From Erythrobasidium yunnanense (taxonomy: Eukaryota > Basidiomycota > Cystobasidiomycetes > Erythrobasidiales > Erythrobasidiaceae), in the NCBI GenBank assembly GCA_001600175.1, contig BCJC01000003.1, positions 744,001-808,000 of the forward strand: a DNA stretch of 64,000 bases. Reading direction: 5' to 3'. Position 1 is the first letter of the stretch. Each line of letters opens with the position of its first letter. Below are positions 14,347 to 55,000 of the stretch, in pieces. The translations under genes were made by a program, and so were the position numbers. The notes below the pieces were generated by a model. That model was not told where the DNA came from and made no database searches. It saw only the letters and a program-made list of their open reading frames with translations.

Positions 14347-15855
14347 ATGAGCCAGCTGCTGTCGAGCATCCGCGACACGCTCCAGTCCAGCGGAGCATTG
14401 AGCACTTCGTCGTATGCAGGAGGGAAGCTGGATCTACATAGCCATATAGCAACAGCCATCAATAAACTACCACTCCAGTATCAACCCCCAGTATGGACAT
14501 ACAGGTGGTATCCTGGGATAAGCCCAATGTCGACAGGTGAGCGAGCGAGGAGCTAGAGCGACCTAAAAAAAATCGCAGACTCGCGCAAACTCGTAGAAGA
14601 TGGTAAGAGAAGGGAAAGCTGACGGTGTGCATTGTGTTATACTCTATGTGCGATGAATAGACGCCCAGGTCGCGGTCGCCGTGGTCATCTATCTCTCGAC
14701 AATCTTTGGAACGAGAGAACTCATGAAGGACAGGCCGGCGTTCAGTGGGTCGCACTCATCTTCCATCCATCGTTACATCAGTACTGATGTATCCACTGTG
14801 TGCACCTCTAGAATTCGCGCGACTCTTCCAAATCCATAACCTCCTTCTGTCATCTGCATCCGGTCTTCTACTCGTGCTCATGCTCCAAGAAGTGAGTCGC
14901 ACAACATCCTTTCATTGTTCTGCAACACCTTAGCTAAAGTAACGCGTCTATCTGCAGATCGTTCCCATCATCTACAAGCACGGCCTGTTCTATGCGATCT
15001 GCAACATCAAGTCCTGGACACCTCGCATGGAGACGTACTATATCATCAACTACTTTTTCAAATACTGGGAATTACTCGACACTATGTTTCTAGTCGTCAA
15101 GAAGAAGCCCCTTGCATTCTTACACGTCTACCACCACGCCGCTACCGCTGTCCTCTGCTACACCCAACTCAACGGAAAGACGTCCATTTCCTGGATTGTC
15201 ATTACGCTGAATCTGTTTGTGCATGTTATTATGTACTACTACTACTGGGCGACTGCGGCGGGGTACAAGATCTGGTGGAAGAGATACGTAACAGTCCTCC
15301 AGATCTCACAGTTCGTTATCGATCTAGGAATGGTGTATTTCGGCAGTGCGTCTCTTCTCCATTATCCCCCTCTCTCCCTCGCTCTCTCTTCACCATACTT
15401 ACTAATATTCCCATTGTGATTTTAGCATACTCCCACTTCGCATACAAGTTCGCCTCCTCCTTCCTACCATACAAAGGCGACTGTGCAGGCACAGAATATG
15501 CGGCTTTACAAGGATGCGCAATCCTCTCTTCATACTTGGTCCTCTTTATTTCCTTCTATAGGAAAACATACAAGAAGGCGAGCGCAAAGAGGGATATCCA
15601 GAAAGCCATGAAGAATGGGAATGGGGTAGCCAAGCCGAATGGAAAGGCGGTTAATGGAAGATCGAGGAGCGAGAGCTTGTCGAAAGCTGCGATCGTTGCG
15701 GACAGCCTGTTCGATGGTGAGTTTCCGCTGCTACGACGATAGGTAGTGGGAAAGGTGGCTGAATCTATCTTTTTGTGATATGTACAGAAACCTGCGGACC
15801 TGCTGGCGTCAATAAATCGACTGCTCCGAGCGGATTCAACACACCTACGATCTAA
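14347..15855 (+). CDS. ELO: ELO-family very-long-chain fatty acid elongase
   Basis: This is the condensing enzyme (3-ketoacyl-CoA synthase) of fatty acid elongation in the endoplasmic reticulum membrane, needed for sphingolipid acyl chains. Seven exons: 14347-14536, 14579-14602, 14661-14744, 14812-14891, 14958-15345, 15426-15716 and 15788-15855 (374 residues). The family signature HVYHH in FLHVYHHAATAVLCY is present, preceded by KYWELLDTMFLVVKKK and followed by the Tyr/His-rich helix LNLFVHVIMYYYYW. Several hydrophobic helices span the middle. The C-terminus is Lys-rich (KKASAKRDIQKAMK), then a Ser-rich tail. The 24-base exon 2 is small. Sequence alone does not tell an Elo2-like from an Elo3-like substrate range. 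Confidence 0.95.
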
Positions 15856-17483
15856 GCGACGAAAGTCAACAGACCAGACGCGACATTGGGGGAGATGCTA
15901 GCTTGTTCACGCATTCCTCGTTTAATTGGCGAGCGTCCTATCCCAGCAAAGCAGTCTGCTTCTTAAGCAGGTCTTTCTCGTCACATCCCCAAAAAAAGGC
16001 ATACATAACCTCCCTTATATCCCCTTTCCCTTCCTTTCCCTTCCTTCTCCACTACAAGGAATGATGTCGCAGAGCTTTCGTGATTCTGTGCTGTTCGATT
16101 CTTCCCAAAAGGATACCCCTTCTTACCTTCTTCATTTCTCCCTCTATTCCTCTACATCCCCCAACATTACAATAGTTCTCTTTTACGTATCCTTCATATA
16201 CCCAAAGATCTTAATGGCATGATTCGGCATCTTATTATCTCCTCCTTATCCTTTCTGCACGCTTCCATCCTTACCTGGCCTTGTCCTTATCCGGCTTTAG
16301 GCTTCTCTCGATATCTTCCGACTTCGTGTTTCGAATCAGTAGAAAAGCAGAGTATACTCCCCACATTCGATGAACAGCGTTTGTCTTCCCCTCGGTGTCC
16401 ACTGTATATAAATCTTCGGCTTCTTAGTCTCTCTTCCTTTGATAGCCTACATCAGAGAAAAGCGAGGAATATACAGGAATGCCAAATACACATATACAAG
16501 GAACCGCTTGCTATATCTCGCTCAATCATTGCTCCAGTCTAGAGCATAAAACGCCCTTGATTCGCTTCCCATAGCTCGAACGCGCGCAGAAACGCGCAAG
16601 ATGAGATAGCAGGATGCGCCCTCGACCTTCGCACTAACTATGCGCAGGGAATCAGGCTGCGGCACCCCCGAAACCCGGTCCTCAAGTTGATCTCGCTTCG
16701 TGTCCCTTTTTGGTGTCCCTTGACGCACGACCGTACATTTCATTGTGCGAATGGCAAGAGCAGCATAATACACGCATTCTACAATACTGCAGGACATCTT
16801 GGGAGCAGAAGAAGAAGGAAATCGCGTACCTCGTCTGCTTCAGCCAAGCCAACATCTGCGATTGCTCAAACGGCTGGCGCGACTGACCATTCGTCTATAT
16901 ACTCTCAGGATCCACCGTCCTCATTCCTGGTGGTCTCCTACGAAGCGAATGCTCATCCGCTTCGGCCAGACCTACCTCCCACTGTTTGTAGCATGCCAGT
17001 ATGGGCCAGCAACGACGAAAACCAATGCAATCTCAAAAGATATCCCTGTCTCCATGATGCAACCCTGGAACAACAAGCCACTCGTTGCGACTGCGAACGG
17101 TACTCCCACTAGCCGACACGGGGAGAACGCGCTGTGCAGCTCCGGTTCGCATACCTAAGACCGACCAGCAGCATCTGACAGCCCTTCTGCTTCCACCTAC
17201 GCGCGGTGTGCAGGCCAATTGCGCGAAGTGTGCCAACGGAAAACACCGCCTGAACAACTAGGCCGATTTTCAGCGAAAAAGCGAAAGCTTTGCTCGCTTG
17301 TGCAACGCATCTGCTAACCAAAGCGGACGGAAAGCATAGCTGGCTCTGCTGCAGCAAAAGCTAGCAGCTTGTTCAGCTTGCGCATCTCTGCTCTCTCCTT
17401 TACACCTCGAGCCTTCGACATACAAGGTAATCTAGTTGCTCTCCGCCGCAGCGAAGATCACTGAGCATTACTTCAGCTAGACC
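15856..17483. other. Long intergenic region with pyrimidine-rich tracts
   Basis: These 1.6 kb hold the 3' flank of the elongase and the promoter of the first Ser/Arg-rich gene. Pyrimidine-rich stretches lie at about 16010-16060 and 16100-16170. Overlapping open frames at 16687-17158 in two phases show no domain or supporting splice pattern. I cannot support a gene here. Confidence 0.4.
17387..17420 (+). promoter_or_regulatory. Shared promoter motif of the tandem Ser/Arg-rich family, copy 1
   Basis: TCTGCTCTCTCCTTTACAC lies about 95 bases before the start at 17484. Near-identical strings precede the next two genes at 18563 and 19622. The spacing suggests a common element near the transcription start, such as a pyrimidine-rich initiator. 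Confidence 0.5.
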
Positions 17484-18227
17484 ATGCCCTACAACGATCC
17501 TTACGGCTACGGCGGAAACACTGCTTACGCGCCTCCTCCTCCCATGGGCAGACATGGCGGCGTATATCCACCCCAGCCTGACATTTACGGAGGTGGACGC
17601 TATGACGACATGGCCATGTCACGCCACGGTCGAGACCACGACCACGGCAGTCGCAGCCGCAGTCGCAACAAGCATTCCGGCAGTCGTCACAGCTCGAGAC
17701 ACCGTGGACGTAGAGACGAGTCGAGTGACGAGAGCAGTCAATCTAGCTCTGGATCCTCTGTCGACAGTGCTTCGACTGGCGCGACCTCGATGTCCTCGTA
17801 CCTTCCTTCCCTTCGCGGATCTCGCAAGTCTAGAAGCAGACACGACAAACGCTCTAAGAAATCAAGCAGATCGAGCCACTACAGCGAGTCAGAGAGCGAA
17901 AGCCCCTCCGAATCCGAGTACAGTGAATCCGAGGATGAAGATCGCAAGCGCAAAGCCAGATCACAGGCAATGAAGGGCAGCGGACACAGCGGTCGGAGAA
18001 ACCCATTGGATAACGTCACCGGAGGAGCTCGTCTCCTTCACGGTGCTTACGATGCCATTAGGGGCGCCCGCGGCAAAAGGCCAAATCGTGCATCACCTTT
18101 TGTGGATCTCGCAACTGCTCTCGGCGGCTTTCTGAACAACGCTGTAGGCCGTTCAGGCGCTGGTATGAAGAAGAGAAAGCCCAAAAAAGTAAAAGGGCGA
18201 GATGGACGCGAAAGGTCCAGACGTTGA
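17484..18227 (+). CDS. Tandem family 2, copy 1: basic Ser/Arg/His-rich protein with Gly-rich C-terminal segment
   Basis: A single uninterrupted reading frame of 247 residues, in a region where almost every other gene has introns. The N-terminus is Tyr/Pro/Gly-rich (MPYNDPYGYGG). Long Ser/Arg/His tracts (SRSRSRNKHSGSRHSSRHRG) and acidic Ser repeats (SESESESPSESEYSESEDED) follow. The only non-repetitive part is a Gly/Ala-rich segment (NVTGGARLLHGAYDAIRGAR, then FVDLATALGGFLNNAVG) before a Lys/Arg tail. It resembles copies 2 and 3 in order of parts and shares their promoter motif. No catalytic domain is seen. Composition suggests a disordered protein that may bind nucleic acid or phase-separate (inference). 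Confidence 0.8.
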   Translation: MPYNDPYGYGGNTAYAPPPPMGRHGGVYPPQPDIYGGGRYDDMAMSRHGRDHDHGSRSRSRNKHSGSRHSSRHRGRRDESSDESSQSSSGSSVDSASTGATSMSSYLPSLRGSRKSRSRHDKRSKKSSRSSHYSESESESPSESEYSESEDEDRKRKARSQAMKGSGHSGRRNPLDNVTGGARLLHGAYDAIRGARGKRPNRASPFVDLATALGGFLNNAVGRSGAGMKKRKPKKVKGRDGRERSRR

Positions 18228-18642
18228 TCGAACGTTCCTGCCTTCGTCAGTATGCATGTTGTGCTAACCATCTCTACCTCAATTATCTCAATATGGATAT
18301 GGCCAGCCACAATCGTATTTGCTTCTCTCTTCACATCGCTAAACTTCAACTGATCCTGGGCGGGCCCGACACGCCTTCATTACCTGCCCACATCCGCTCA
18401 CAGCTAGCCTTCTGACCTCTGCCAAATTCGCTCGATGCTAAGAAGAAAATTTCGACCGCTTGCCTGCTTCAAAGGGATCGCCACCGGTTGGACAGTAAGC
18501 CGCAAGGCACAGCAGGAACTCGACTAGCTGGCTTGCTCGCTCTGCTTGCAGACGAGGGCAGCTCTGCTCTCTCCTTTGCTCTAACACCCGAACAGAAAGC
18601 CGCCTGCTTGGCCCGCCGACTTTCGTAGCCAGGACCTACACA
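18228..18642. other. Intergenic region between family 2 copies 1 and 2
   Basis: It carries CTCGATGCTAAG near 18431, then GAAAATTTCGAC, then the pyrimidine motif at 18563. The same three elements in the same order precede copy 3. No gene was recognised. Confidence 0.5.
18563..18591 (+). promoter_or_regulatory. Shared promoter motif of the tandem Ser/Arg-rich family, copy 2
   Basis: TCTGCTCTCTCCTTTGCT is followed by AACACCCGA, about 80 bases before the start at 18643. It matches the elements before 17484 and 19733. Confidence 0.55.
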
Positions 18643-19338
18643 ATGCCATCCAAGTCTGCCGTACGCTATCGACACGATGACGACGGGATCTCCCTCGAAG
18701 GAAAGGGGAGGAAGCACAAAGCTCATGCTTCCTGGCACAAGAGCAAGGGAGGCAGCTCTCACTCCCACTCCCGCTCCGGATCCAAGAAAAGCTCTCACAA
18801 GCATGGCAGTCACAAGTCCAAGCATTACTACTCTGACTCTGACTCTAGTTCCGCTTCCAGCGAGAGTACATTCTTAGATCCCTCCGACTCTGAATGGGGT
18901 TATAGTTCCGATGATACCGCCGTCACATCGAGATCAGCCAAGTCCAAATCAACCGGAATCATGACCATACTCAGAGGCAAGCGGGATGACGACGACGATG
19001 CCTCGAGCACATACAGTCGAAGACACAAGCCCAAAAAGTCAAGTACCGCACACAGACCTAGCAAATATCGCCCTGGAACAAGAGGTATTCGCGATAGGCT
19101 CACTGTTCGTGAAGGTGCCGGTATGTTAGCATTCATGTATGGGGCATTCCAGCATCTCAAGGATCGGTACAATGGCGAGCATACCTCCAAGCTCCATCAC
19201 GCAATGATGCATGCAGGAGTCTGGCATGGTGTGAAGGGGCATGATAGGCGCATGATAAAAGGCGTCAAGAAAGGTCTTAGAGAGCCCTATGAGAAGAAGC
19301 CTCATCGTAGGTCTCGAAGAAGCCACAAAGATGACTAG
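18643..19338 (+). CDS. Tandem family 2, copy 2: basic Ser/His/Lys-rich protein
   Basis: A single-exon gene of 231 residues. It starts MPSKSAVRYRHDDDG, then has Ser/His/Lys repeats (SHSHSRSGSKKSSHKHGSHK), an acidic Ser block (YYSDSDSSSASSEST) and Arg/Lys-rich linkers. The non-repetitive C-terminal part is VREGAGMLAFMYGAFQHLKD, followed by a His-rich stretch and the basic tail EKKPHRRSRRSHKDD. It has the same plan as its neighbours: disordered basic and acidic tracts, a short Gly/Ala hydrophobic segment, a basic end. Sequence divergence among the three is high, so the duplications are old or fast-evolving. Function unknown. Confidence 0.8.
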   Translation: MPSKSAVRYRHDDDGISLEGKGRKHKAHASWHKSKGGSSHSHSRSGSKKSSHKHGSHKSKHYYSDSDSSSASSESTFLDPSDSEWGYSSDDTAVTSRSAKSKSTGIMTILRGKRDDDDDASSTYSRRHKPKKSSTAHRPSKYRPGTRGIRDRLTVREGAGMLAFMYGAFQHLKDRYNGEHTSKLHHAMMHAGVWHGVKGHDRRMIKGVKKGLREPYEKKPHRRSRRSHKDD

Positions 19339-19732
19339 GTTGGATTGGACGAGGCTCTAAAGTGTCGTATATACATTACTTTCACTCTGCCTTGTACGAC
19401 TGGCGCTCTCGAGACTCAGTATGCAATTCCCTTTCCCGGGAAGCTTGAATTCTTGCGTACTCTTGAGGGGCCTACCCGTTGACGCATCGACCACTCGATG
19501 CTGAGCCGAGAAAGCGCAACTGAAAATTTGACAGCTCTGTCGGACCCGCAAGGCGGCTGTCCACCTGGTCTTACGGACACGCGGCAGTGCCTCCTGGTGC
19601 GGGAGGACCCAGCAGAGTAGGTTCTGCCCCTCTCCTTTGCTTCCTACACACCCGAAGTGGATCTCCAAGAAGTGCCGACTTCCTTTGACGCTCCAAGAGT
19701 CAACCTTCATCCGAACACAGAAGCGCAGCAGC
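19339..19732. other. Intergenic region between family 2 copies 2 and 3
   Basis: It carries CTCGATGCTGAG (19494-19505), then GAAAATTTGAC, then the pyrimidine motif at 19622. These parallel the spacer before copy 2. No gene was recognised. Confidence 0.5.
19622..19655 (+). promoter_or_regulatory. Shared promoter motif of the tandem Ser/Arg-rich family, copy 3
   Basis: TTCTGCCCCTCTCCTTTGCT is followed by ACACACCCGA, about 110 bases before the start at 19733. An upstream in-frame ATG at 19637 lies inside this motif, which is why I prefer the start at 19733. Confidence 0.55.
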
Positions 19733-20386
19733 ATGGGCAGAAGCGGAAGCGGAGATGTCGTCATCAAAGAGAGTACCAGGACCATAGTCCCTGGGGGCAG
19801 CGAACGGTCCAGACATTCCTCACATCGTCACCATAGATCGCATCGCCATGGCTCGCGTAGCAGCAGGGGCAGCCACAGCTACAAGGTTATACCGATCGAT
19901 AGCTCCTCCGCCTCCTCTTCATCGTACAGTAGCTCCGACTATGATTCGGGGTACGAGAGTGATCTGAGGCACAGAGAGCGCAAGGAGCGCAAACTTGAGC
20001 GCGAGCTGGCTCTGGCGCGCCGAGAACGTCACAAGGCTAGAAAAGAACGCAAGCGTAGACACAGAGCCAGCAGGGACTCCGACAAGGAGGAGGAGGAGGA
20101 GACGAGCGTAATCAAACGCAAGAACAGGGTCGGTCTGACAGAAGGTCTCTTCGGTGCAGGTGCTGGAACTGCCGGTCTCGTATTCTTCGCTCGGAACCTT
20201 GCAAGGATCATGAAGCATGGCTATGGTCCCATGGACAAGAGAGGTCCGCTCTTCATGGGTGGAGGAGGTATATTGGGCATCCACGCGCGCCATAGACACA
20301 ACAAGGCCAAGCCGGAGGAAGAAGAGCAGGTTGTCAGACGCAAGAAGGAGACCAAAAGGTCCAGCAGAAGGAAGCATTCTGATTGA
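19733..20386 (+). CDS. Tandem family 2, copy 3: basic Ser/Arg/His-rich protein
   Basis: A single-exon gene of 217 residues starting MGRSGSGDVVIKES. It has His/Arg/Ser repeats (RHSSHRHHRSHRHGSRSSRG), a Ser/Tyr block (SSSASSSSYSSSDYDSGY) and a charged helix-like stretch (RERKERKLERELALARRER). A Gly/Ala-rich hydrophobic segment follows (GLTEGLFGAGAGTAGLVFFA), then GGGGILGIHARHRHN and a Lys/Arg tail. The hydrophobic segment is the strongest of the three copies and could associate with membrane, but it is short. The downstream neighbour is VPS13, 259 bases away, with no obvious link. Confidence 0.8.
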   Translation: MGRSGSGDVVIKESTRTIVPGGSERSRHSSHRHHRSHRHGSRSSRGSHSYKVIPIDSSSASSSSYSSSDYDSGYESDLRHRERKERKLERELALARRERHKARKERKRRHRASRDSDKEEEEETSVIKRKNRVGLTEGLFGAGAGTAGLVFFARNLARIMKHGYGPMDKRGPLFMGGGGILGIHARHRHNKAKPEEEEQVVRRKKETKRSSRRKHSD

Positions 20387-51791: not shown

Positions 51792-52017
51792 GTCGACAGC
51801 AGCGGGCGTTGTTGGTCAGAAATCCTGAGTGTTCAGAAGCAAGCAGGTCGCGGCCGTGAGTTCGCAGATCCAGAACCAGAAATAGGACGGCTGTATGCAT
51901 ACAGAACAGTAGATGTACAACGCTTCTATAGCGGCTAGAATGTAACAATCAGAAACGCACGCTGTCTTTGAGCGCGCTCTTTTGATCCTGAACAAACACC
52001 TGCTCGAATCGCAAGCC
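51792..52017. promoter_or_regulatory. Compact bidirectional promoter, UTP4 (-) and coiled-coil gene (+)
   Basis: Only 226 bases separate the two divergent starts, so both genes must share this control region. No specific motif was recognised. Confidence 0.55.
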
Positions 52018-55000
52018 ATGAGCGATGCTGGGGCTGATGTGAAGAGTCTGGACGCTGTGGAACATACTACAAAGGCGCAGAACGGCGAAAGCGCGATATT
52101 CCAAGCTGGAACTGAGGACCAAGCTCACCTGGAGCACGAGAATGAGCATGAGCTGGCAGCAGACGATAACGACCTACCCACCAATGGACATGCTCAGGAA
52201 ACGTCAGATTCAAGTACTGGTCTGGCGAACTGGTGCTCGTTTAGCTGGAACTAACGCCGTATTGCACAGGCCATACTGCTGTAGATGAAGATATCCAAGC
52301 TGCTTCCACAGAGGATATCACTACGAATACTGTCAAGGATGCGCAAGAGACGCCCAGCGACGGCAGTAAACCAGACGCATCAGCACTTCCGGCGCGTAAG
52401 GCACCTACCCCTAATGTTGCATCTTCGCAAAAGACAGCCTCAGCATCTTCAGCTTCTGCTCCTCCTACTCCCGCGAAAGGTGCGAAAGCATCAACCACGG
52501 GAGGACCAGCGCCTGGAGCAAGTACGGCAGCAGGCGCGAGCGCGAAACCACCTGTGCGGACGACTATACCACCTCGAACAGGCACATCTTCTGTCAGCGC
52601 AAGAGTAGGAGCCATCAATGCGTCCGCTGCGAACTCGGCAACGACTCGCCCGCTTGCAGCGCGTCCATCAGTCGGAGGTGCTCGTCCGCCTATTGCAGTC
52701 AGTGCAGCCGCTCGCACAGCTAAGCCAGCTGGGAGCGTAACATCTTCTACGACTACGGCTCCTCCTGCGATTGCCGCCAAGGCACGCGTTCCTGCCACGA
52801 CCGCACCTAGCAGACCTGCCGGATCTGTCAGACCGCCTTCTGTTTCTTCTTCAACGACCGTGAAGCCTGCTGCGACTGCTAGAGCAGCAGTATCTAGCTC
52901 AAGAACGCCCGCGACGTCAACCTCTATCGCCGCGCGGGGTCCAACTGCTAGAAATCCCTTGTCTGCTTCGACGGGCAGTACGAAGACAGCTAGTACAGCA
53001 CCGTCGCCTGCAGTAAGAGCTATCGGTGGTGCTGGTGCCGCCGCCAGACCCGGCGCAGCTTCCGAAGCGAATGCGAAGGTAAATACCTTATGCATCGACA
53101 ACAATCCGAATCGGTACTAAGCCCATGATATAGATCAAGGAGCTTGAAGGTGTTCTGGCTGACAAAGAAGTTGCTCTCGAGAATATGAAGACTCGCATTG
53201 GCGAACTTGAGGAAATACAATCGCATCATCAGATGGCCGTCAAGCAGCTAGAAGAGCTTCGAGAAGAGATCGAAATTGCGAAACAGGGTCGCGATACTGC
53301 GACGGACGAGCTGGATGTAGTCACGAAACAGCTGGCGGATATAAGCAGGAAATTGCATGAAGCGGAAGACGAGAAGGCCACTTCAAGCAAAAGAAACGAA
53401 GAGATGGCTTCAGCGGCCGAGAGCTTGCAAAAAGAACTAGAGAGTGCACATACGCAGCTCGCAGAAGCGCAGGGAGCGAGTGCGAAGGCGCAAGCCGAGC
53501 TGGCAGAGAAGCATGATTCTGCGCTGGCCCATCTGCGGACAGAAATGGACAGTGCTCATCAAGCGGCTTTGGACGACCTTCAGACTCAGCTAGAAGAAGC
53601 ACAAGCGCAAGTGAAGGAAGGACGGGCATCTTTAGAACAAGCTCATACAGAAGCGATCGCCGCTCTTAAAGCATCTCACGAAGAAACTCTAGCTTCCAGC
53701 CTACAAGAACACTCCAACAAGCTGTCAAAAGCACTGGCGGACGCTTCTACCAAAGAAAGCGAAGCGCTTGCTGAAGCACAGAAGAAGCACGATTCTTTGG
53801 TTGAGCAGTTAAAGCGGGAACAAGAGGAAAGTCGGAGAGAAGAGCTTGAAAGCATCGATAAAGAGTGGAAAGTATCGGCTTCGGCACAAGCTGAAGAAGC
53901 CAGAGAAGAGGCGAAGAAAGACTATACGAGCAAGATCGCATCCCTCGAGAAAGAGCTTTCGGATGCAAAACAGCAAGCCGAAAAGAAGCAGCAAGCACAC
54001 GCTCAGGAGCTTGATAGTTTGAAACAGCAGATTGAGGTGAGCTGCGACATGCTAGCAATCGCTTCCTTAGCTGACATGAGGAGTTAGTCTGACGGCCAGG
54101 ACCACCAACAGAAGACAGATACTCTCGCCAAGGAGCACGAAGGAAGGTTCAAGGGTGCCTACGAAGCAGCACGCAGAGATGCGGAGCAGGCCTTACATAA
54201 AGAATTGAAAAGCTTGCGGGAGCAATCGACAGCTAGTGTAGATCAAGTATGTACACATGTCCTCGCAAGTCAATTGACGGCTGATTTCGAATGTAGCTGC
54301 GAACAGCACACGAGGCTGAACTGACGAGCGCAAAGAATGCCCACGCAGCCGAGCTAGCGCAAGCCGCCTCAAAGCATACAAACGAGCTCAACTCGCTACG
54401 TATCGACAGCGAAGCTACTCGTGCTGACCTCAACAAGTCCAAAGCTCAAGAAGCTTCCATCTCTGCTGCCCTTAGGGCGAGTGAGGCCTCCCTGGAGGAA
54501 GCTCTCTCGCCGGCTGCCGCGGCTCAAGATGCTCTTCAGACTGCGAATGCTTCGCTCGCAGCTCAAGCAAGCGAAAGTAAAGACAACGATACGTCCGAGT
54601 TCCTGCATGCAGAGCTGGATCGGGCAATGGCGGAAGCCGAAGAGTCCAGAAGCAAGCTTGTCGAAGCGGAGTCTCGGCTCAAAGATACCTACAAACTACA
54701 TAATGAAGAGTTGGAGAAAGTCACCGAAGCTCGATTGACAGCAGAAGCTGAGTTGCGGAAGCAATTGAAAGAGGCTACTGCGTCTGCTCATGCAGAGATC
54801 GAGAAGACGCAGGCGGAGCTCAAGAAGGCGCAGGAGGGTACCCATGACACTCACAAGATGATGGAACAAGTAATAGAACCGCTCAAATCGCAGCTGGAAC
54901 GCGCTTCTGCAGAAATGCAGGCCGTGAAGGCTGATCAAGAGACTAAGCTGCAAGATCTGCATCACGCTCATAACAATACATTGAAGGACGCAGAGATGCG

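Follow-up and report, generated by a model that had tools for sequence, protein, structure and literature searches.

Three open reading frames, lying one after the other between ELO and VPS13 in the analysed DNA (a stretch of 64,000 nucleotides, the window in the following), raise the question of whether neighbouring genes, whose protein sequences have little in common, may nevertheless be recognised as a family from what stands upstream of them. The earlier note had described them as three consecutive single-exon genes, and they were confirmed as same-strand ATG ORFs, adjoining each other:

17484..18227, forward strand: copy 1 ORF, 247 aa, basic, S/R/G-rich
18643..19338, forward strand: copy 2 ORF, 231 aa, basic, S/K/H-rich
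19733..20386, forward strand: copy 3 ORF, 217 aa, basic, R/S/H-rich

Scanning the window for Rfam families and tRNAs gave no matches. The elements found upstream of each copy are the following:

17386..17406, forward strand: copy 1, CTCTGCTCTCTCCTTT, with ACACC directly after
18431..18442, forward strand: copy 2, CTCGATGCTAAG
18445..18452, forward strand: copy 2, GAAAATTT
18500..18508, forward strand: copy 2, CCGCAAGGC
18563..18592, forward strand: copy 2, TCTGCTCTCTCCTTTGCT, then ACACCCGAA
18615..18622, forward strand: copy 2, GCCGACTT
19494..19505, forward strand: copy 3, CTCGATGCTGAG
19522..19529, forward strand: copy 3, GAAAATTT
19546..19554, forward strand: copy 3, CCGCAAGGC
19623..19656, forward strand: copy 3, TCTGCCCCTCTCCTTTGCT (longer by one base), then ACACCCGAA
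19674..19681, forward strand: copy 3, GCCGACTT

CTCGATGCTRAG and GAAAATTT, originally assigned to copies 2 and 3, were indeed seen upstream of those two only. The elements ascribed to all three copies are less uniform. The long CT element is exact in copy 2 only, shows two mismatches in copy 1 and is one base longer in copy 3, so that the 18-mer given in the earlier note fails there even at 2 mismatches; ACACCCGA is exact in copies 2 and 3, whereas copy 1 has ACACCTCGA instead. Two further words, CCGCAAGGC and GCCGACTT, absent from that note, are collinear upstream of copies 2 and 3, and the words common to these two copies reach as far as 239 bases upstream of the ATG.

The upstream regions were scored for chains of common words in the same order, and the scores were compared with those of 2000 random pieces of the window and of 2000 pieces from outside it. 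The latter were drawn from 24 loci, many of which had been fetched as matches to these motifs, which makes this control a strict one. For copies 2 and 3, which have six short words in common, the chain score is 19; no window piece exceeds 9 for either copy, and the highest outside pieces stand at 13 and 10. A word of 16 bases links copies 1 and 2, whose chain scores 13. Of the window pieces (at most 12 and 9), 0/2000 reach this value, and of the outside pieces 2/2000 do so, for either copy. The score of 3 obtained for copies 1 and 3 is at chance level, being reached or exceeded by 1373 and 1002 of the 2000 window pieces and reached by 1223 and 1107 of the 2000 outside pieces. The proposed tandem family with kept promoter elements is thus supported for the pairs 2-3 and 1-2, which display the features of segmental duplicates (adjacent position, same strand, common flanking non-coding sequence), but not for the pair 1-3.

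The stretches between the promoter words are mostly at background, the real score being reached by 386, 44, 254, 201, 499 and 251 of 500 shuffles, which argues for patchy retention, rather than for a recently copied block. On the 3' side, TCAGTATGCA follows copies 1 and 2; among 2000 matched random pieces, 74 and 55 score at least as high as its chain of 4, so that it lends weak support at most. Additional copies were searched for between ELO and copy 1 and past copy 3, where only chains of 2 to 6, in the range of random pieces, were obtained.

The pattern CTCTCCTTTN{0,14}ACACCYGA has two matches in the whole 20.9-Mb genome, both within the array. Of the 11 CTCGATGCTRAG sites located outside it, none is accompanied by GAAAATTT at up to 80 bases or by CTCTCCTTT at up to 300 bases, and the promoters of copies 2 and 3, used as DNA queries against their own genome, matched only themselves. 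The motif scan suggested in the earlier note therefore places the ordered module in this array only, and not in unrelated promoters; its confinement suggests that the promoter likeness reflects shared descent, not a regulon. A genome-wide regulon is unsupported, as the module was seen at no second place; judging from the sequence, a putative co-regulation of the three genes is plausible.

The composition of the three proteins was also analysed. Their pI is 10.6, 10.2 and 10.9 in copies 1, 2 and 3, respectively, with net charges of +23.5 to +25.3, and S, R, H and K together account for 48, 46 and 43% of residues, which puts them first to third of the 46 ATG ORFs with 200 aa or more in the 136,788 bases analysed. 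The same layout recurs in all, with a Ser-rich block, a hydrophobic/Gly patch within the final 40% of residues and a basic tail. By charge and hydropathy, all are placed on the disordered side of the dividing line, in agreement with the disordered S/R/H-rich chains described beforehand. In copy 1, a PY/G-rich N-terminus is followed by an SR/SE-rich middle, a Gly/Ala patch and the tail KKRKPKKVK; the C-terminal part of copy 3 is likewise a Gly/Ala patch, then a basic tail. Relative to ten Pfam-supported window ORFs, taken as whole proteins, the content of copies 1, 2 and 3 is 2.72, 1.91 and 3.10 times for R, 1.68, 3.43 and 2.61 times for H, 1.04, 2.00 and 1.42 times for K, and 2.10, 1.52 and 1.69 times for G. 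SR/RS dipeptides number 19, 8 and 10, and appear dense by eye in copy 1 only, which is also the only one of the three with K[KR].[KR] nuclear-signal-like matches. AlphaFold2 models have a low mean pLDDT, 56.0 for copy 3 (three-row alignment) and 52.8 for copy 2 (single sequence), with low confidence outside one helix. In copy 3, a charged R/E/K helix is predicted, drawn over residues 73-131 and confident at about 81-110; in copy 2, two helices of low to middling confidence (residues 155-175 and 181-196) are predicted in the C-terminal patch.

The patch could be taken as an anchor, making the products membrane-associated basic disordered proteins. In 3/3 proteins the hydrophobic peak does fall in the final 40% of the sequence, and the models of copies 2 and 3 place helices there, with low to middling confidence. 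However, the Kyte-Doolittle mean over 19 residues is at best 0.96, 0.46 and 1.28 in copies 1, 2 and 3, always below 1.6, the usual threshold for a membrane helix, and no signal-peptide-like N-terminus was seen by eye in the three proteins, so that an anchoring role appears unlikely. Effector arrays typically carry secretion signals, of which, again by eye, none was seen here.

Sequence similarity among the copies was evaluated at both the protein and the DNA level. The alignment of the proteins of copies 2 and 3 outscores 500/500 whole-sequence shuffles, and its score is reached by 15/500 (local) and 18/500 (global) shuffles preserving local composition; the C-terminal parts of the proteins of copies 1 and 3 are similar at chance level, 517/1000 shuffles reaching their score. 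The strong divergence previously noticed is thus borne out. Word chains of the coding DNA are no better than local codon shuffles, of which 263, 33 and 287 out of 300 reach the real score. A synonymous-codon score peaks weakly in the true frame of each copy (0.032, 0.029 and 0.058 per codon in copies 1, 2 and 3), one wrong frame of copy 3 scoring 0.030, about as much as the true frames of copies 1 and 2.

A rival explanation is that the genes are unrelated neighbours, alike by low-complexity composition, with promoter words due to chance or to general core-promoter sequence. The reduction of the protein scores to marginal by local-composition shuffles, the 1-3 promoter chain and the outside pieces matching the 1-2 chain are on the side of this explanation. 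It is nonetheless rather improbable, because the 2-3 chain lies above every window and outside piece, for either copy, the ordered module is found at no other genomic place, and the adjoining ORFs are the top 3/46 in composition.

Relatives were looked for in several collections. In a large protein set, 745 candidates came up for whole copy 3, but E 0.001 was attained by none of them; for whole copy 1 (3408 candidates) and for residues 140-231 of copy 2 (3 candidates), no candidate attained E 1. This set also missed the proteins of the window itself, so that its negatives say little for this lineage. Pfam, at E up to 1, returned a single match, Presenilin to copy 1 (9 bits, E 0.71, cut-off 34.3), and no RRM, linker-histone, histone or protamine match in the three proteins. 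Among solved structures the best E values were 0.28 for copy 3 and 0.65 for copy 2, deemed to be chance, and copy 1 had no match. Own-genome protein searches returned each gene itself and, for copy 3, one additional 13.1-bit match; their sensitivity is low, since they missed the two sister copies. The view that no such family has been described agrees with these searches, within a protein set whose coverage of the lineage is unproven.

Lack of introns had been attributed to design or to retro-origin. The former is unsupported: in one survey (PMC5103461), intronless genes average 19.81% in Basidiomycota and 62.93% in Ascomycota, with far lower averages in Tremellomycetes, and three tandem copies derived from a single intronless ancestor represent one event only. 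Retroposition of the copies from one another is contradicted by the upstream words they share, as 200 bases of upstream sequence would not accompany a retrocopy; copies 2 and 3 were rejected as mutual retrocopies, given promoter words kept up to 239 bases from the ATG. Their single ancestor may itself have arisen by retroposition; no intron-containing parent gene was found by the own-genome protein searches, insensitive even to sister copies.

The reading we favour, tentatively and at somewhat less than an even chance, is that the array arose by old segmental tandem duplication of a fast-evolving gene, and that its products act as SR-like, nucleic-acid-binding, self-associating disordered proteins. 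A single-exon ancestor would have been tandemly duplicated long ago, promoter included; the coding sequences would then have drifted nearly to the level of composition, while the short words of the promoters would have been kept in their order. Coding divergence beside fixed promoter words suggests that selection is exerted on the expression programme and on bulk properties, not on residue order; these properties would be the strong positive charge, a Ser-rich phosphorylatable disorder, the Gly/hydrophobic patch and the basic tail. The charged part may bind RNA or DNA, with binding possibly tuned by serine phosphorylation, and the C-terminal patch may serve for chain-to-chain association. We infer in this way the transcription and co-expression of the genes, and the nucleic-acid binding, self-association and localisation of the proteins. 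Less favourable to this reading are the marginal kinship of copies 2 and 3 at the protein level and its absence from the C-terminal parts of copies 1 and 3, the chance-level likeness of promoters 1 and 3, the lack of Pfam domains, the nuclear-signal-like matches confined to copy 1, the small codon signal and the low pLDDT.

SR/RS dipeptides (dense, by eye, in copy 1 only), high Ser and Arg and disorder are shared with SR splicing factors, which have an RRM, whereas the array proteins have none, are short and carry a hydrophobic C-terminal patch. The array fits the ordinary pattern of fast-evolving duplicates: same-strand neighbours, kept promoter words and undetected relatives are also found in orphan gene arrays (lineage-restricted tandem duplicates), although here hardly any coding similarity has survived as long as the promoter words. 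Duplicates encoding disordered proteins are often lost to protein search; in this case the promoter words retain evidence of common descent. If co-expression is true, the array offers a compact test of selection on composition and dosage, versus sequence, in disordered proteins. That it represents an unnamed family, defined by promoter and physical make-up, in which the cis-module would drive a dosage set towards a nuclear/RNP condensate and sequences would be nearly free to drift, seems doubtful, with a small probability.

A function in septal-pore plugging would relate the proteins to SPA/SPP of filamentous ascomycetes (Pezizomycotina), which form aggregates at the pore after wounding or under stress, and whose disordered regions, according to PMC10023807, are biased to arginine and histidine and show antipathy to lysine and glycine. 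Disorder and R/H enrichment are common to the array proteins, a likeness drawn from published composition, with R at 1.9-3.1 and H at 1.7-3.4 times the Pfam-supported window ORFs; K and G, at 1.0-2.0 and 1.5-2.1 times, do not appear to be avoided, which points against this function. Both comparisons were made on whole proteins and thus on another yardstick than that of PMC10023807, where disordered regions were set against other disordered sets. A HET-domain match is absent, as it is from 14 control genomes. The lineage probably is not Pezizomycotina, and more likely Basidiomycota, a placement by signature rather than by tree: TGTTTGAGTGTCAT, ending a 5.8S fragment (39/876 5.8S candidates scored), is what we take to be a basidiomycete-type signature. 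Septal plugging is accordingly given a low probability.

Protamine-like or linker-histone-like condensers of chromatin, e.g. of spores, would account for the pI above 10, the net charge and the basic tails, and are equally improbable, in view of the absence of Pfam matches to histones and protamines, of the Ser/Asp/Glu-rich blocks and of the predicted charged R/E helix of copy 3.

The window covers positions 744001-808000 of its contig, in a genome of 20.9 Mb and 10 contigs. Between exons of ELO, a fatty-acid elongase, and of VPS13 lie three single-exon ATG ORFs, all on the same strand:

15027-15419: ELO exon, upstream flank of the array
17484-18227, + strand: copy 1, 247 aa
18643-19338, + strand: copy 2, 231 aa
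19733-20386, + strand: copy 3, 217 aa
20998-22008: first Pfam-matched ORF of the VPS13 exons, other flank of the array, true start unplaced

Synonymous codon usage was scored after training on three ORFs, two of VPS13 and one of ELO. The annotated frame is narrowly the best for all three copies, with per-codon scores of 0.032, 0.029 and 0.058 for copies 1, 2 and 3, against maxima of 0.019, 0.003 and 0.030 in the other five frames of the same stretch. A chance origin of three predicted ORFs in a row, of this length and of the same make-up, appears unlikely. A stretch of about 1.5 kb located 5' of copy 1 (15860-17380) is without a convincing gene, the longest ATG ORF listed being 107 aa, and gives low chains of ordered exact words against the array promoters.

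The encoded proteins (P1, P2 and P3) rank as the top three in S+R+H+K content among the 46 ATG ORFs that reach 200 aa, in 136,788 bases comprising the window and 24 loci (13 of 37 loci were excluded, for overlap with the array or with another locus). Their pI values are 10.6, 10.2 and 10.9, they contain no cysteine, and all are classed as disordered by the charge-hydropathy line. When each protein is divided into sixths, a Ser-rich part (peak 39-44% Ser) is followed by a hydrophobic/Gly part, located in the fifth or last sixth, and by a net-positive end, the last sixth carrying a charge of +7 to +10.

Kinship of the three copies is hardly apparent at the protein level. Of 500 whole-sequence shuffles, the real local and global scores are reached by 2 and 1 for P1-P2, by 5 and 0 for P1-P3, and by none for P2-P3; when the composition of 20-residue windows is preserved, the counts are 51 and 66, 265 and 78, and 15 and 18, respectively. 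For the C-terminal parts alone, 26 (P1-P2), 517 (P1-P3) and 30 (P2-P3) of 1000 shuffles reach the score. Collinear words in the coding DNA do not exceed the level of local codon shuffles (263/300 for copies 1-2, 33/300 for 1-3, 287/300 for 2-3).

The array is of interest to the specialist for its promoter words, which outlive coding similarity. The upstream regions of copies 2 and 3 (u2 and u3) have in common, in one order, six exact words, each 8 bases or longer, CTCGATGCT, GAAAATTT, CCGCAAGGC, CTCTCCTTTGCT, ACACCCGAA and GCCGACTT, with a chain score of 19. The maximum is 9, for either copy, against 2000 random 400-base window pieces outside the array, and 13 and 10 against 2000 pieces from the 24 loci elsewhere in the genome, a strict control, because many of these loci were chosen for matching these motifs. 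The upstream region of copy 1 (u1) shares CTCTGCTCTCTCCTTT and TAGCTGGCT with u2; the score of 13 is reached by 0/2000 window pieces (maxima 12 and 9) and, for either copy, by 2/2000 outside pieces. The sole word common to u1 and u3 is CTCTCCTTT, and this chain is at chance level (1373 and 1002 of 2000 window pieces, 1223 and 1107 of 2000 outside pieces). The shared promoter elements described in the earlier note are thus supported for u2-u3 and u1-u2, and not for u1-u3.

Gapped local alignment agrees with the word chains. The scores of 100.5 (u2-u3) and 101.5 (u1-u2) are each reached by 0/400 first-order shuffles and 0/400 window pieces per side, although they exceed the best shuffles (97.5 and 100.5) only slightly, because loose gaps push up all scores; for u1-u3, 12/400 shuffles and 30 and 4 of 400 window pieces reach the score. 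The six stretches between the words of u2 and u3 are mostly at background (the real score is reached in 386, 44, 254, 201, 499 and 251 of 500 shuffles), and the surviving likeness therefore consists of islands, as would be expected from binding-site constraint rather than from leftovers of recent copying or conversion. A word of 10 bases, TCAGTATGCA, found 3' of the stop codon in copy 1 (18247) and in copy 2 (19416), is at most weak additional support for their kinship, since as good a chain is obtained with 74 and 55 of 2000 matched random pieces.

The words shared by u2 and u3 extend to 239 bases 5' of the ATG, which therefore argues for segmental tandem duplication; retrocopies of one another would leave no shared upstream words. 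The retro-origin proposed in the earlier note is thereby set aside for copies from one another; the single ancestor may still be of retro-origin, as own-genome protein searches, which found no intron-bearing parent, did not link the three copies to each other either and are thus insensitive on this point. The lack of introns, which had been considered remarkable, is less odd because intronless genes average 19.81% in Basidiomycota and 62.93% in Ascomycota, according to PMC5103461, which gives far lower figures for Tremellomycetes.

No sign of a wider regulon was observed. The proposed genome scan with the promoter motif found no second site of the ordered elements outside the array: CTCTCCTTTN{0,14}ACACCYGA has 2 matches, both in the array (reversed control pattern, 0); the looser TCTCTCCTTTN{0,12}ACACC has 5, 2 of them in the array, at copies 1 and 2 (control, 2); CTCGATGCTRAG has 13, 2 in the array (control, 5). 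The long CT promoter element, an 18-mer, gives 30 matches with up to 2 mismatches (control, 12). At the 11 CTCGATGCTRAG sites beyond the array, the next 80 bases contain no GAAAATTT and the next 300 no CTCTCCTTT; likewise, CTCGATGCT is absent from the 300 bases that precede each of the three CT/ACACC sites beyond it. Own-genome searches with the promoters of copies 2 and 3, 300 bases each, returned self-matches only, and are insensitive to patchy likeness, because these two promoters were not linked to each other.

No significant relative of P1, P2 or P3 was found in Pfam, a large protein set or solved structures, and no such family is described in the literature titles and abstract openings searched, in line with the novelty claimed earlier; the array would fit the known class of fast-evolving tandem genes. 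AlphaFold2 draws a charged R/E/K helix at residues 73-131 of copy 3, with ten-residue means of 90-95 for residues 81-110 and below 60 from 111 on. Confidence is low outside this helix (mean pLDDT 56.0 for copy 3, 52.8 for copy 2), and the copy 2 model is without a long charged helix of this kind. By analogy, nucleic-acid binding and condensation would best fit the make-up of the three proteins, a basic, Ser-rich, disordered chain with SR dipeptides and a sticky patch. An identity as septal-plug proteins was seriously considered: these share the R and H bias, according to PMC10023807, where they are also reported to avoid K and G, unlike copies 1-3, which show no such avoidance by a different yardstick, ten Pfam-supported ORFs of the window. 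Membrane anchoring is conceivable, although the hydrophobic peaks are weak in all three proteins.

Elsewhere in the genome, a partial 5.8S rRNA match (model 40-154, 61.1 bits) was found at L037:1501-1625 (C1:4391638-4391762, - strand), the one match listed from 39 of 876 candidates scored. It terminates in TGTTTGAGTGTCAT, a basidiomycete form, and lies directly upstream of a putative intron-rich HSP70 gene, read by eye; no other rRNA family matched in this 3.1-kb locus. The source is taken to be a fungus, probably of the Basidiomycota. A HET-domain search gave 0 matches in the genome, an absence that is not established because the 14 control genomes gave 0 as well. Within the window, each strand has an open frame of 291 aa over almost the same stretch at 52241-53120, included in the segment with the strongest AT skew (52001-54000, 0.266).
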